NCBI RefSeq assembly: GCF_001548675.1
Contig: NZ_CP010834.1
Coordinates: forward strand, 62,001 to 126,000
Length of the DNA: 64,000 nt
Direction of reading: 5' to 3'
Source of the DNA: Methanobrevibacter sp. YE315
Lineage (GTDB): Archaea; Methanobacteriota; Methanobacteria; Methanobacteriales; Methanobacteriaceae
This document shows positions 50,968-57,755 of the stretch, in pieces (position 1 is the stretch's first letter; the number at the start of each line of letters is the position of its first letter). Made by a program: the position numbers and the translations under genes. The notes under the pieces are model-generated. The model was not told the DNA's origin. It made no database searches and worked only from the letters and a program-made list of their open reading frames with translations.

Positions 50968-52007
50968 ATGAAATACATTAAACTTGGAAATTCAAACCTC
51001 AATGTTAGCCGAGTGTGTATGGGTTGTATGGGCTTTGGCGATCCGACAACAGGTATGCATACTTGGACATTGCCTGAAAAAGAATCAATTGAAGTGATTA
51101 AAAGGGGTTAAATCATGAAATAAACTTCTATGATACTGCAATTGGTTATCAGAACGGTACTTCTGAACAATACCTTGGAAAAACGATTAATGAACATGCC
51201 AATCGTGAAGATGTTGTAATTGCAACAAAATTCCTACCCAGAACAGAAGAAGAGATTAAAAACAATGTCACAGGCCAACAGCACATCCACAATCTTGTCA
51301 ATAAAAGCTTAGATAACCTTCAAATGGATTATATAGATTTATACATTTATCACATGTGGGATTACAATACTCCAATATATGATATTTTGGAAGGTTTAAA
51401 CGAAGTGATTGAAGAAGGCAAGGTTCGATATATAGGTATTTCCAATTGTTTTGCTTGGCAACTTGCAAAAGCAAATGCAATAGCTGAAATGAATGATTTC
51501 AATAAATTCGTATCCATTCAAGGACATTATAACTTAATTTTTCGTGAAGAGGAACGTGAAATGATTCCATTATGTAAAACAGACAATATTGCCCTAACAC
51601 CTTACAGCGCACTTGCATCTGGAAGGCTATCAAGATTGCCTGGTGAAGTTTCCAAAAGACTAAAGAAAGACTTTTATGCTAAATTGAAATATCAAAACAC
51701 AGAATCATTGGATTTGGAAATTATTAAAAGAGTACATGAAATTTCACAGAATTATGGCGTTTCAATGACTGAAGTCTCTCTTGCTTGGCTTTTAAAAAAG
51801 GTAACTTCTCCTGTAGTTGGTGCAACTAAAATGCATCATGTGGATGGTGCAGTCAATGCAGTTGATTTAATATTGTCCGACGATGATATGAATTATCTTG
51901 AGGAACCTTACATTGCTCATGATTTGGTAGGTGTGATGGCGGACAATAAGGTTTCAGCTAACGATAATGAAAAAGTATGGCAGAAATATACAAAGAATAA
52001 CATTTAG
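50968..52007 (+). pseudogene. Aldo/keto reductase, broken by a one-base deletion
   Basis: Reading from ATG 50968 gives a good N-terminus (YIKLGNSNLNVSRVCMGCMG) but meets TAA at 51109. From 51108 the frame shifted by one base continues LNHEINFYDTAIGYQNG to a stop at 52007 with all usual features (IATKFLPRT, MDYIDLYIYH, EEGKVRYIGISN). One base is missing near the GGGG run at 51104-51107. It is either a recent frameshift mutation or a sequencing error; the rest looks intact and full length (about 346 aa). Intact relatives reduce aldehydes and ketones with NADPH. A truncated protein could start at an internal ATG. Confidence 0.85.
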
Positions 52008-53363: not shown

Positions 53364-53774
53364 ATGAAAAATATAGAAAAAGCAGTTCAATTATTTGAAA
53401 ATGGATATGTGTGTTCACAAGCGGTATTTGCAACATTTTCACAAAATTTAGGCCTTTCAGAAGAACAAGCCTTGAAAATCGGCGCATGCTTTGGTAGTGG
53501 TATGCGTAAAGGTGAAGTTTGTGGTGCTTGCACAGGTGCACTAATGGCATTAGGCCTTAAATATGGAGAAAGTAAAACTAAAAGTAATGAAGTATGTGAA
53601 AAATTTTTAGATGAATTCGAAAAGGAAAACGGATCATATATCTGTAGAGAATTACTTAATTGTGACATTAGAACTGAAGATGGTGTTAAATATGCATTGG
53701 ATAATAATCTATTTAAAGAGTTTTGTCCAAAGATGGTTGAATCCGCAACTAAAATAATTGAAAGTTACCTTTAG
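53364..53774 (+). CDS. C_GCAxxG_C_C family redox protein
   Basis: 136 aa. The cysteine pattern that names the family is visible: YVCSQAVFATF, IGACFGSGMRKGEVCGACTGALMALG and, near the end, YICRELLNCD plus EFCPKM. Members are thought to be redox-active or metal-binding and are often fused or adjacent to oxidoreductases. It is cytoplasmic. There is no strong ribosome site before the ATG. Copies of the dispersed repeat flank it on both sides. Confidence 0.88.
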   Translation: MKNIEKAVQLFENGYVCSQAVFATFSQNLGLSEEQALKIGACFGSGMRKGEVCGACTGALMALGLKYGESKTKSNEVCEKFLDEFEKENGSYICRELLNCDIRTEDGVKYALDNNLFKEFCPKMVESATKIIESYL

Positions 53775-53950: not shown

Positions 53951-54802
53951 TTAAATCCTTGAAAGCCAATATGCAAATATTTCTGAAATATTTTCATCAA
54001 AACAAATGGTCTTATCTTTGTTTTCAGGTATTGCTTGTGATGAGCTTCTATTTAACCTAATTAATGTGGTGTTCGGGTTTTCATATGTCATCTGTTCAAA
54101 TGGATATCTTATTATCGAAGGTGTGTTAAAGCCAACGCCCAACTCCAAGAATACAATGTTTTTGTCTTCATCAACATGTTCCAAATACTTTGAATAATTA
54201 TTATACATTTCCGTCCATTTCTCATCTTCAACAAATGTATTGTCGACTCTTAGATTCAAAGCCATTTCCTTTCCGCAGACTGGACACTTTGGTATTAAAT
54301 CGGAAGGGATTCTACAATCGTTAATGTTTTCAACGGCTTTAAAGACAAAATCCCTATTTGAGTATAATTTTTCATGGCAGGGTTCGCTGCATTGGAAAAT
54401 GCCATAGTCTCCCTGTGTTGCAAAGATTCTATCATCCTCAAAGCCATTTATCCAAAATTGATGTTCGACATTGGTTGTCAGGATGAAATAATCCTTATCT
54501 TTAACCAGATTCAATAACTGTTCATATAATTCGGTTTTGCCAACGGAGTATCTGTTCATAAAAACATGACGGGACCAGTAGGCCCATTTTTCCTCGGAAG
54601 TTTTGAATGGATAAAATCCGGAAGAATACATGTCGGTCAAGCTGTATTTTTCAATGAAGTCCTTAAAGTTGTCTTCAAAACGTTTACCCGAATATTCAAT
54701 GCCCGCAGCTGCAGAAAATCCGGCACCTGCACCAACAAGAATATATTCTGCATCATTTATGGCATCATATGCCTTGTCTAATCTTTTAACGAAATGTTCC
54801 AT
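53951..54802 (-). CDS. SirTM-type sirtuin (predicted protein ADP-ribosyltransferase)
   Basis: 283 aa Sir2 fold: NAD site VGAGAGFSAAAGI (residues 23-35), TTNVEHQF with N111, and ATQGDYG where the catalytic histidine of deacetylases is replaced by Q130. The N-Q spacing (19) and the zinc cysteines C138, C142, C173 and C176 match macrodomain-linked sirtuins (SirTM), which in Staphylococcus and Streptococcus ADP-ribosylate a lipoylated GcvH-like carrier during redox stress. The upstream gene encodes the partner macrodomain. No GcvH-L or LplA2 gene lies nearby, so the target here is open. The ribosome site AGGAG is clear. Confidence 0.88.
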   Translation of the reverse strand: MEHFVKRLDKAYDAINDAEYILVGAGAGFSAAAGIEYSGKRFEDNFKDFIEKYSLTDMYSSGFYPFKTSEEKWAYWSRHVFMNRYSVGKTELYEQLLNLVKDKDYFILTTNVEHQFWINGFEDDRIFATQGDYGIFQCSEPCHEKLYSNRDFVFKAVENINDCRIPSDLIPKCPVCGKEMALNLRVDNTFVEDEKWTEMYNNYSKYLEHVDEDKNIVFLELGVGFNTPSIIRYPFEQMTYENPNTTLIRLNRSSSQAIPENKDKTICFDENISEIFAYWLSRI

Positions 54803-54811
54803 ATTCTTCTC

Positions 54812-55588
54812 CTAGAATAATAAATTCCTGTATGTTGTATAGCTGTCATCTGAGAATACGTCAAAAATCACATGCTTTAAGCTGGTTTCATTTGAGTTCA
54901 AATATTCTCTAACAGTACCAATAGCTATTTTGGCCGCTAAATCTCGTGGAAAATTAAATACTCCTGTTGAAATGCCACAAAAAGCCAATGATTCAAGATT
55001 ATTTTCATCGGCTATTTCTAAACATGAAATGTAGCAACTTTTCAGTGCTTCACAGTCGCTTTTGGAAGGCTTTGAGCCATGGGGGATTGCGGGGCCGACA
55101 GTATGGATTACATATTTTGAAGGCAGATTATAAGCGCTTGTGATTTTAGCTTCGCCCACTTTTTCATCTTGTCCCTGCAACTGCATTATTTTGTTGCATT
55201 CCTCTCTGAGCTGTAATCCGGCTGCTGAGTGAATCATGTTGTCAATGCAATTGTGAAGAGGTATAAAGCAACCTAATAATTTTGAATTTGCAGCATTGAC
55301 AATCCCGTCAACTTTCAAGGTTACAATATCGCCTTGCCAAAGCATGATTTTGCCGGCAACATCCTTGATATCTTCAACTGAAGTTAAATTTTTACTTAAT
55401 GTTTCGGCAGTTAGGAAATCGTCCTGAACTTTTAGAAATTCATCTGAAATTTTTAAAGGCATTCTTACATTCATTAAGGATCGAAGCAAATCTCTTTTAG
55501 ATTTGTAGTCTTGTGGAATTTCAATAGATTCGTTTCTCTCATCAATCAAATAATTAATTAGAAAATCAAGCTGTTCTTCTTTATTCAT
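54812..55588 (-). CDS. Zinc-containing macrodomain ADP-ribosylhydrolase
   Basis: 258 aa. An N-terminal helical extension (residues 1-75) precedes the macrodomain ([19 protein letters not shown], then [11 protein letters not shown]). The zinc-binding segment [19 protein letters not shown] (C107, H112, C114) identifies the SirTM-associated class. It should remove ADP-ribose placed by the adjacent sirtuin. It sits 14 bases after the HxlR regulator and nine before the sirtuin gene, so the three form one minus-strand operon. A GGAG ribosome site is present. Confidence 0.92.
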
Positions 55589-55602
55589 ATGATTCTCCTG
55601 TA

Positions 55603-55977
55603 TTAATCAATATTCAGGGTGTTCTTAAAGATGTTTGTCATTTCTTCAGATTCGTCATCTGTTGCGGTATCATCTTTTTCTAAAGTGAACATGGCCAGTT
55701 CATAAAGAATTCTATTCATTCTTTTTCCTTCTTCAGTCAGGGAATATTCAGTTATTTTGGAGTCATCTATATTGGTTTTTGAAATCAGTCCGTTTGATTC
55801 CAAATCCTTTAGGCATTCTGTTAAAACTTTATTGCTTAAAGCAGGTTTGTCTTCCTTAAATTCTTTGAATCTTGTTTTACCGAAAAACAAATCCCTTATT
55901 ATTAGAAGGTGCCATTTTCCGCTGATGATTTTTAAGGTTTCGTTTACCGGACAGTAATTGCTTTCGAATTTAGCCAT
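55603..55977 (-). CDS. HxlR-family transcriptional regulator
   Basis: 124 aa winged-helix protein. [34 protein letters not shown] is the family hallmark region (quoted only in part here by its motifs CPVNETL and GKWHLLI), with a cysteine near residue 8 that in relatives senses electrophiles or redox state. It is the first gene of the macrodomain/sirtuin operon and is divergent from the flavin oxidase-like gene. The shared gap has five GTTAC/GTAAC-type half-sites, a likely operator for itself. Confidence 0.9.
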
Positions 55978-56038
55978 GATATCACACTTTCCATTTTGGA
56001 TATGAATTTATCTATTGATGATTATTAATAAAATTTTA

Positions 56039-56092
56039 GTTACGAAAAAGTAACCAAAGACTCTAATCAGTTATTAGTAACTTTAAAGTAAC
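56039..56092. promoter_or_regulatory. HxlR-type operator cluster, divergent promoter
   Basis: Half-sites GTTAC (56039), GTAAC (56050), GTTAT (56070), GTAAC (56077) and GTAAC (56088) lie between the divergent HxlR and PNPOx-like genes. The pairs 56039/56050 and 56077/56088 are each 11 bp apart, one helical turn, and GTTAC-N6-GTAAC is an inverted repeat. A rightward TATA-like CTTATATTTAG follows at about 56099-56109, before ATG 56180. Confidence 0.6.
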
Positions 56093-56179: not shown

Positions 56180-56584
56180 ATGGAAGACGTAATTAAATTC
56201 TTAACTGAAAACCCTCAGCAATATCTCGCAACTACAGGACTTGACGGAAATGCAAAAGTAAGACCTATATTATTCTACTTTGCAGAAGATGACAAACCAT
56301 ACTTCTGTACCAGCAATCAAAAGCCAATGTATAGGGAATTGGATGCAAACCCTAACTTTGAAATGACTGCAGCCACTCCTGAATTCCAATGGATCAGAAT
56401 TGCTGGAAAAGTCGAATTCGTCGATGATTTGGAAATAAAACAAAAGGTAATTGATGCTAATGATCTTGTAAAGGCATTATATGAATCTGGTGACAATCCG
56501 ACATTTGAAGTATTTACCATTAAAGAAGGCAAAGCTACTATCGCCGACTTTTCTGGAGAACCTCCAAAGGTTTATGAAATTTAA
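56180..56584 (+). CDS. Pyridoxamine 5'-phosphate oxidase-family flavin-binding protein
   Basis: 134 aa split-barrel protein. The FMN- or F420-binding fold is indicated by QYLATTGLDGNAKVRPILFYF, KPYFCTSNQKPMYRELDANP and WIRIAGKVEFVDD. Small proteins of this type reduce or bind flavins and quinone-like compounds; the substrate is unknown. GGTGAT with good spacing precedes ATG 56180. Divergent pairing with the HxlR gene suggests redox or electrophile-inducible expression. Confidence 0.88.
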   Translation: MEDVIKFLTENPQQYLATTGLDGNAKVRPILFYFAEDDKPYFCTSNQKPMYRELDANPNFEMTAATPEFQWIRIAGKVEFVDDLEIKQKVIDANDLVKALYESGDNPTFEVFTIKEGKATIADFSGEPPKVYEI

Positions 56585-56866: not shown

Positions 56867-57367
56867 ATGGAATTTGATAAAGAGAAGTTCAAAACAGTTC
56901 TTTCATACATTATCAACAGATGTGAAAATAAAAAGAATGTTGGAAAAACCGTGATTTGCAAATTATTGTATTTTTCAGATTTCAATTATTATGAGAAATA
57001 TGAAACCTCCATAACCAATGAAACCTACATCAAATATGAAAGGGGTCCATACCCACAACACATTGATGAAATAATCGATGAGATGATAAATGACGAATCC
57101 ATCACAATCGAAAAAAAACCTTATTTTGGAACTACTATCCATAAACACTATTTAAAAGATGTTCCAGACCTATCAGCCCTAAACACTAAAGAGTTGAGTG
57201 TCATAAATGAAGTAATCGATGATTTAGGCGATTTGTCTGCAAAAGAAGTCAGTGAATACTCCCATGGGGACATGCCTTGGATGATTGCAGAGGATAATGA
57301 GGATTTAGACTACGAATATGTTTTCTACAGGGACCCTGAATACAGCGTTAGAGAATATGACAACTGA
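56867..57367 (+). CDS. Panacea-domain (DUF4065/SocA-like) antitoxin
   Basis: 166 aa. The Panacea core is visible: VLSYIINRC, KTVICKLLYFSDFNYYEKYETSIT and YIKYERGPYPQHIDEIIDEM, then AKEVSEYSHGDMPW near the end. Panacea domains neutralise many unrelated toxins by direct binding. The following gene encodes a RelE-like protein whose start overlaps this stop by 11 bases, a classic antitoxin-toxin order. A strong ribosome site AAAGGAGGG lies upstream. Confidence 0.85.
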   Translation: MEFDKEKFKTVLSYIINRCENKKNVGKTVICKLLYFSDFNYYEKYETSITNETYIKYERGPYPQHIDEIIDEMINDESITIEKKPYFGTTIHKHYLKDVPDLSALNTKELSVINEVIDDLGDLSAKEVSEYSHGDMPWMIAEDNEDLDYEYVFYRDPEYSVREYDN

Positions 57368-57755
57368 ATACACCATTAAGACTTATCCTAAATTTGATAA
57401 GGAATTTAAAAAACTCACCAAAAAGTGCCCATCACTTGAAGAGGACTTTGAAAGGTTAAAAAAGGTTTTACTTCTGGATTTGAAAAGGGGAGACCATAGA
57501 TTAACCCAAGATAGGTATAATCAGATTCCGGGTTTAGGTTCAAAAGTGAAATTTCCGGTTTTCAAAATCAAGAAATTCCGTTGCAAATCAATTAAGGAAG
57601 GAAACAGATCACCATTCAGATTCATATTCATATTAAGCAGAAAACATAACATAATATATTTCACAGAATGTTATTACAAATCCAAACAGGAAATAGAAAA
57701 CAAAAAAAGAATACAGGACATCTGTGCAAATTATGAAATATATTTTAATGAATAA
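57357..57755 (+). CDS. RelE/ParE-superfamily toxin-like protein
   Basis: 132 aa from ATG 57357 (an earlier in-frame ATG at 57318 lies inside the antitoxin gene). The pattern YPKFDKEFKKLTKKCPSLEE, a central basic stretch and FRFIFILSRKHNIIYFTECYYKSKQE is that of RelE-fold mRNA interferases or gyrase inhibitors. It is very lysine-rich. It is coupled to the Panacea antitoxin by an 11-base overlap. The target (ribosome-bound mRNA or other) cannot be told from sequence. Confidence 0.78.
   Translation: MTTEYTIKTYPKFDKEFKKLTKKCPSLEEDFERLKKVLLLDLKRGDHRLTQDRYNQIPGLGSKVKFPVFKIKKFRCKSIKEGNRSPFRFIFILSRKHNIIYFTECYYKSKQEIENKKRIQDICANYEIYFNE

Follow-up and report, generated by a model that had tools for sequence, protein, structure and literature searches.

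The window analysed here, a 64 kb stretch of the genome of a gut methanogen, Methanobrevibacter sp. YE315, encodes a class M sirtuin (SirTM) and a zinc-dependent macrodomain (Zn-Macro) together with an HxlR-family regulator and, on the opposite strand, a flavoprotein of the PPOX type. We consider it probable that these genes form a redox-responsive, lipoyl-independent SirTM/Zn-Macro switch run by HxlR, with PPOX as the leading candidate for its target or partner. The SirTM/Zn-Macro pair itself is already known: lone pairs were described in 2015 (PMC4518038), and the observation as worded in the initial annotation is largely a congener of a published Methanobrevibacter oralis case (PMC11490716). 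Here, the lipoyl route is ruled out in the complete genome of a gut methanogen, a regulator and operator common to gut Clostridia and gut methanogens are named, and a class of inducer to try (thiol or electrophile stress) is defined. With the lipoyl route out, the regulator and operator named, and PPOX as a candidate, the long-open question of the target becomes directly testable.

The operon and its divergent neighbor

Three open reading frames follow one another on the minus strand in the order HxlR, Zn-Macro, and SirTM, at the coordinates and in the order that the initial annotation gave. They are separated by 14 bp (HxlR-Macro) and 9 bp (Macro-SirTM). SirTM (53951..54802, minus strand, 283 aa), a predicted protein mono-ADP-ribosyltransferase, has no Pfam match, and phmmer aligns it with SpySirTM (PDB 5a3a, E 6.5e-54) and also with the fungal Mfs1 (8rsn). 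A residue check equates its N111, Q130-G131, and R185 with Spy N118, Q137, and R192, the mutation of which lowers SirTM transfer activity (PMC4518038). Where deacylases have HG, this protein has QG, and the replacement of the deacetylase histidine by Q130, already pointed out in the annotation, is a feature of the whole class: Q and R occur in 106/106 aligned rows of class M relatives, and N in all except the fungal row. The class motif GVGx[NT]TP appears as GVGFNTP (residues 222-228), the zinc-binding cysteine pairs are C138, C142, C173, and C176, and the adjacent gene (54812-55588) supplies the expected genetic linkage to a zinc macrodomain.

This Zn-Macro (54812..55588, minus strand, 258 aa), a predicted ADP-ribosyl hydrolase, has M. 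oralis MorMacro as its closest solved relative (8rsi, E 5.9e-118), scores 351 bits against NCBIfam model PRK04143 for protein-ADP-ribose hydrolases (cut-off 272), and also matches PF01661. Residue mapping finds both the Dx3H dyad (D116/H120) and the zinc loop C107/H112/C114, the C-H-C set that had been reported. The matches to 5a3a, 8rsn, 8rsi, and PRK04143 bear out the identification of both enzymes. The first gene of the operon (55603..55977, minus strand, 124 aa) encodes the HxlR/DUF24-family regulator, which clears PF01638 with 72 bits (cut-off 20.8).

Divergent from HxlR, with the operator region in between, lies the gene for a PPOX (PNPOx_N, NimA/NimC-like) flavin split-barrel protein (56180..56584, plus strand, 134 aa). 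It clears PF01243 (42.4 bits, cut-off 28.1) and has a NimC/NimA-like structural match in PDB 2ig6; for the F420-dependent PPOX class TIGR03618 it stays below the curated cut-off (31.7 bits vs 79). The earlier reading overlooked this gene and the shared operator. Its statement that the usual oxidoreductases are missing is right for OYE and LLM; the flavoprotein PPOX, however, adjoins HxlR and is conserved with the system.

Some further neighbors deserve mention in their own right. A C_GCAxxG_C_C redox-active protein gene (53364-53774, plus strand) is convergent with SirTM, and in six congeners a relative of this family lies some kilobases from the SirTM/Macro pair. An aldo/keto reductase gene (50969-52007, plus strand) has its frame broken near 51110 by an in-frame TAA and, after it, a change of frame, leaving an ORF for the C-terminal 227 aa only. 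On the other side, a Panacea (SocA-like) antitoxin domain gene overlaps a 145-aa ORF without a Pfam match (56867-57755, plus strand); the two are a probable Panacea-type toxin-antitoxin pair, with homologues in loci L023 and L033.

Lipoyl machinery and descent of the pair

In the neighborhood there is neither a lipoyl carrier nor a lipoate ligase gene, which agrees with the reported lack of GcvH-L and LplA2. The initial annotation had proposed that the target gene might be elsewhere or that another protein is modified, and we searched the whole genome (one contig, 2.27 Mb, 99.96% complete) with the profiles GCV_H, LplA-B_cat, BPL_LplA_LipB, and Biotin_lipoyl. There was no genome match to GCV_H, a profile positive in 13/14 controls, nor to LplA-B_cat, the LplA/LipB catalytic domain. 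The single BPL_LplA_LipB match is the biotin ligase BirA, encoded beside PycA, and the single Biotin_lipoyl match is the biotinyl domain of PycB (pyruvate carboxylase). Given a complete genome with no GcvH and no lipoate ligase by these four profiles, the canonical target is not simply encoded at another site; a GcvH-L target is excluded at the sensitivity of the profiles used. No GcvH-L/LplA2 locus turned up in the genome, so the result that the initial annotation itself had named as refuting did not appear. The first of the two proposals thus falls, and the second, modification of another protein, stands.

Lipoyl independence is common, as full-length GcvH is present in only 10/50 bacterial genomes with close SirTM relatives. 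Matches to GCV_H of 20-22 bits in Clostridia were set aside as partial and probably due to other biotinyl domains.

Within the phylum, SirTM occurs in 75/152 genomes but in only 4/20 genera, all belonging to the family of the window. The other close relatives in public genomes are mostly from Clostridia (47-58% identity), and in a quick tree the archaeal SirTMs fall into at least two groups interleaved with them, which suggests more than one transfer between the domains. Three loci of a related genus (L164, L165, and L168) contain tandem SirTM paralogs behind one Zn-Macro, the second copy being only 35-39% identical to the window SirTM.

The HxlR regulator and its putative operator

The idea that HxlR replaces the missing genes as an archaeal peculiarity finds no support, as a divergent HxlR is recurrent beside lone pairs in Clostridia and a lone pair from M. 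oralis had already been published (PMC11490716). HxlR lies within 5 kb of SirTM in 35/75 bacterial loci; with 119 HxlR genes spread over 169 Mb of bacterial sequence, the expected number is 0.6. Its placement there is upstream and divergent in nearly all cases (35 occurrences, with one upstream on the same strand and one downstream). Among congeners with complete flanks, a divergent HxlR adjoins the pair in 10/12; in these 12 genomes the pair occupies a chromosomal place unlike that in the window and conserved among them. The linked HxlRs of congeners are 57-61% identical to the window HxlR, other HxlRs 39-48%. One congener (G126) has both arrangements, the window type with HxlR first in the operon and PPOX divergent, and the congener type with HxlR divergent (L176 and L177). 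A nearby HxlR is missing in archaeal genus g18 and in several bacterial loci, a point against the proposed switch; bacterial loci without HxlR often contain an Rrf2 regulator (21 loci, 3 with both, Fisher P 6e-4).

In an HxlR tree with midpoint rooting and few columns, the linked archaeal HxlRs cluster with unlinked archaeal ones (100/100) and the linked bacterial HxlRs with bacterial ones. This suggests that the SirTM-HxlR association arose separately on each side, HxlR probably having been recruited separately by the archaea as far as such rooting and so few columns can tell. A simple transfer between the domains of the complete cassette, HxlR included, was rejected, as in this tree the linked archaeal HxlRs do not group with the bacterial ones.

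Motif searches located two putative operator sites of 16 bp, both in the HxlR-PPOX intergenic region. Site 1, GTTACTTTTTCGTAAC (56039..56054), upstream of HxlR, has the dyad GTTAC-N6-GTAAC, and site 2, GTTACTTTAAAGTTAC (56077..56092), is 38 bp away. Directly downstream of site 1, a TATA-like element, TTTTATTAATA (56023..56033, minus strand), was picked out by eye and carries no score. An exact GTTAC-N6-GTWAC is found nowhere else in the 64 kb, and the TTT-form of the motif exists exactly twice in the genome, both times at this promoter, a confinement that led us to reject a large HxlR regulon in this genome. One-mismatch sites elsewhere in the genome are at the level of a reversed-pattern control, apart from an array of ~34 repeats with a 288-bp period (G000:C1:1043999-1053525), in all likelihood a gene for a large repetitive surface protein.

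Conservation of the operator at HxlRs linked to SirTM extends from Clostridia to methanogens. Counting sites with at least 9/10 motif positions, GTTAC-N6-GTWAC lies upstream of 50/62 linked HxlRs vs 4/35 unlinked ones (Fisher P 2e-11), although P values overstate the independence of the data since the motif originally came from archaeal sequences and those compared are related. Split by domain, the linked counts are 25/27 (archaeal) and 25/35 (bacterial), with shuffle expectations of 0.4 and 0.8. Across the archaeal loci, 37 exact sites lie in promoters of Macro, HxlR, or PPOX (21 kb in all) vs 3 in the other 486 kb. Loci with no HxlR near Macro (L023, L028, and L169-L171) still have sites ahead of that gene, and in L161 and L163 sites precede separately promoted PPOX genes; together this amounts to regulon-type evidence that does not depend on gene adjacency.

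As to the signal, an N-terminal cysteine of HxlR/DUF24 proteins such as HypR, YodB, and CatR serves as the sensor for diamide, quinones, and HOCl (PMC6943732). Cys9 of the window HxlR aligns with HypR Cys14 (alignment to HypR 4a5m and YodB 5hs7), which makes this residue the probable sensor of thiol or electrophile stress. HxlR would bind the two GTTAC-N6-GTWAC sites beside the promoter and control its own operon (HxlR-Macro-SirTM), probably along with the divergent PPOX gene. We infer that HxlR is more likely a repressor.

Candidate targets, rival readings, and known systems

With the system on, SirTM would draw on NAD+ (through N111, Q130, and R185) and place a single ADP-ribose on an acidic residue of some cellular protein, a mark that the zinc macrodomain would take off again. 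As the canonical lipoyl-GcvH-L is absent from the organism, the target should be a protein other than a lipoyl carrier. The most economical candidate for target or partner would be the co-regulated PPOX, as a counterpart of the operon-encoded flavoproteins of pathogens; we saw no other candidate that both shares the operator and recurs in the two domains.

A PNPOx_N protein occurs in 33/75 bacterial SirTM loci, mostly on the same strand just upstream of Macro, a count that the ferredoxin half of the PPOX profile may inflate by a few. Bacterial PPOX is often fused to two 4Fe-4S motifs; a PPOX-two-cluster ferredoxin fusion directly upstream of Zn-Macro-SirTM is seen in L126 (4619-5236) and its relatives in many Ruminococcaceae and Lachnospiraceae. 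In archaeal pairs PPOX is adjacent or downstream, but it is absent beside most congener pairs. Apparent PPOX proteins in L169, L170, and L173 were rejected, being ferredoxin/flavodoxin proteins caught by that same half of the profile. For the single-domain PPOX of the window, identity is 94-95% to copies in another genus of the family, whose linked SirTM is far more divergent (50% identical). A further genus has PPOX copies at ~69-71% identity, and bacterial copies linked to SirTM are at 44-50%. One contig (G002:C16) contains a second, orphan class M sirtuin (L035:9164-9994), 38% identical and with QG kept but no macrodomain, which adjoins genes for HxlR, PPOX, and a membrane protein. Another redox context is found in the g18 loci L166, L170, L171, and L173, where genes for glutathione-peroxidase-like and flavodoxin-like proteins come after the pair.

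Because PPOX is absent beside most congener pairs, its role may be that of a co-regulated enzyme and not of a target, and a PPOX that is co-regulated but unmodified is at least as likely. The strongest rival builds on this: PPOX would merely be a co-regulated detoxifying flavoenzyme, while SirTM modifies an unlinked host protein, for example a redox enzyme of methanogenesis. We rate this as a serious contender, if slightly on the doubtful side. In its regulatory features it does not differ from the favored explanation at all, and it accommodates both the many Macro-SirTM pairs without an adjacent PPOX and their varied neighbors (the glutathione peroxidase of g18, an NAD(P)-binding or MBL-like protein in Clostridia). 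It also has a precedent in pathogens, where OYE and LLM are co-encoded, yet the label was found on GcvH-L only (PMC4518038). The bolder proposition that the NimA-like PPOX is itself the substrate, reversibly ADP-ribosylated by the HxlR-controlled pair, with lipoyl control in pathogens as one branch of a wider system, strikes us as rather unlikely; if true, class M sirtuins would act in both domains as on-off switches for redox proteins.

Biotin might also stand in for lipoate, with the biotinyl domain of PycB as the SirTM target. The genome has one Biotin_lipoyl domain and one biotin ligase, PycB is the only protein with the biotinyl/lipoyl fold of GcvH, and GcvH-L, the sole known SirTM target, has the same general fold (PMC4518038). 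Nevertheless, we find this improbable: neither PycB nor BirA is linked to SirTM in any of the ~110 loci inspected, SirTM is highly specific for GcvH-L (PMC4518038), and residue mapping shows that the basic GcvH-L-binding patch of SauMacro (R175/R176) is absent from the window macrodomain, which has P169/H170 instead.

It is harder still to believe that HxlR, PPOX, and SirTM/Macro are mere neighbors, with HxlR-PPOX as a unit of its own that does not control the pair. HxlR-PPOX does stand apart from Macro-SirTM in L035, and several hundred bases intervene in L165, L167, and L180, but operator sites immediately precede Macro also in loci with a separate or missing PPOX or HxlR, the bacterial recurrence is ~60-fold over expectation, and HxlR heads the operon in the window. 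Least credible is a toxin-antitoxin or anti-phage module, which we rejected: sirtuin and macrodomain folds do occur in defence systems and the pair in this genome sits in a region differing between congeners, but no PADLOC model matches SirTM or Macro, the pair keeps to one chromosomal place across 12 congeners, and publications tie SirTM systems to oxidative stress (PMC4518038, PMC11490716).

Our preferred reading, the HxlR-run switch without lipoyl, has relatives among several known systems. On the regulatory side, HypR and YodB of Bacillus subtilis (PDB 4A5M and 5HS7) belong to the same family and have the N-terminal cysteine at the same position, whereas their targets are nitro- and azoreductases. 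The window HxlR has nothing equivalent to HypR Cys49; a different cysteine, Cys55, is conserved among congeners (ortholog alignment). We found no paper in the open-access literature that joins SirTM with HxlR.

The extended operon of Staphylococcus aureus and Streptococcus pyogenes comprises GcvH-L, Macro, SirTM, LplA2, OYE, and LLM (PMC4518038). It has in common with the window the same two enzymes, the same catalytic residues, and the association with a flavin oxidoreductase. The window, on the other hand, is without GcvH-L, LplA2, OYE, and LLM, its genome has no lipoyl system by the profiles, and its flavoprotein is a PPOX and its regulator an HxlR. Fungal Mfs1 (8RSN) likewise joins a class M sirtuin to a zinc macrodomain with no lipoyl partner gene, but it is eukaryotic, fuses macrodomain and SirTM in one chain, and is not beside HxlR.

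Closest of all is M. oralis, where MorMacro (PDB 8RSI/8RSJ/8RSK) comes from a "minimal operon" of the pair only, described in 2024 (PMC11490716). The text of that publication, searched for HxlR, an operator, and PPOX, mentions none of them; it names GcvH-L as the sole known SirTM target and leaves the targets of lone SirTM/Zn-Macro pairs open. Like the window, the M. oralis operon combines an archaeal Zn-Macro with a linked SirTM and does without GcvH-L and LplA. MorMacro itself does not demodify SpyGcvH-L but strips Glu/Asp-linked ADP-ribose from PARP1 E988Q (PMC11490716).
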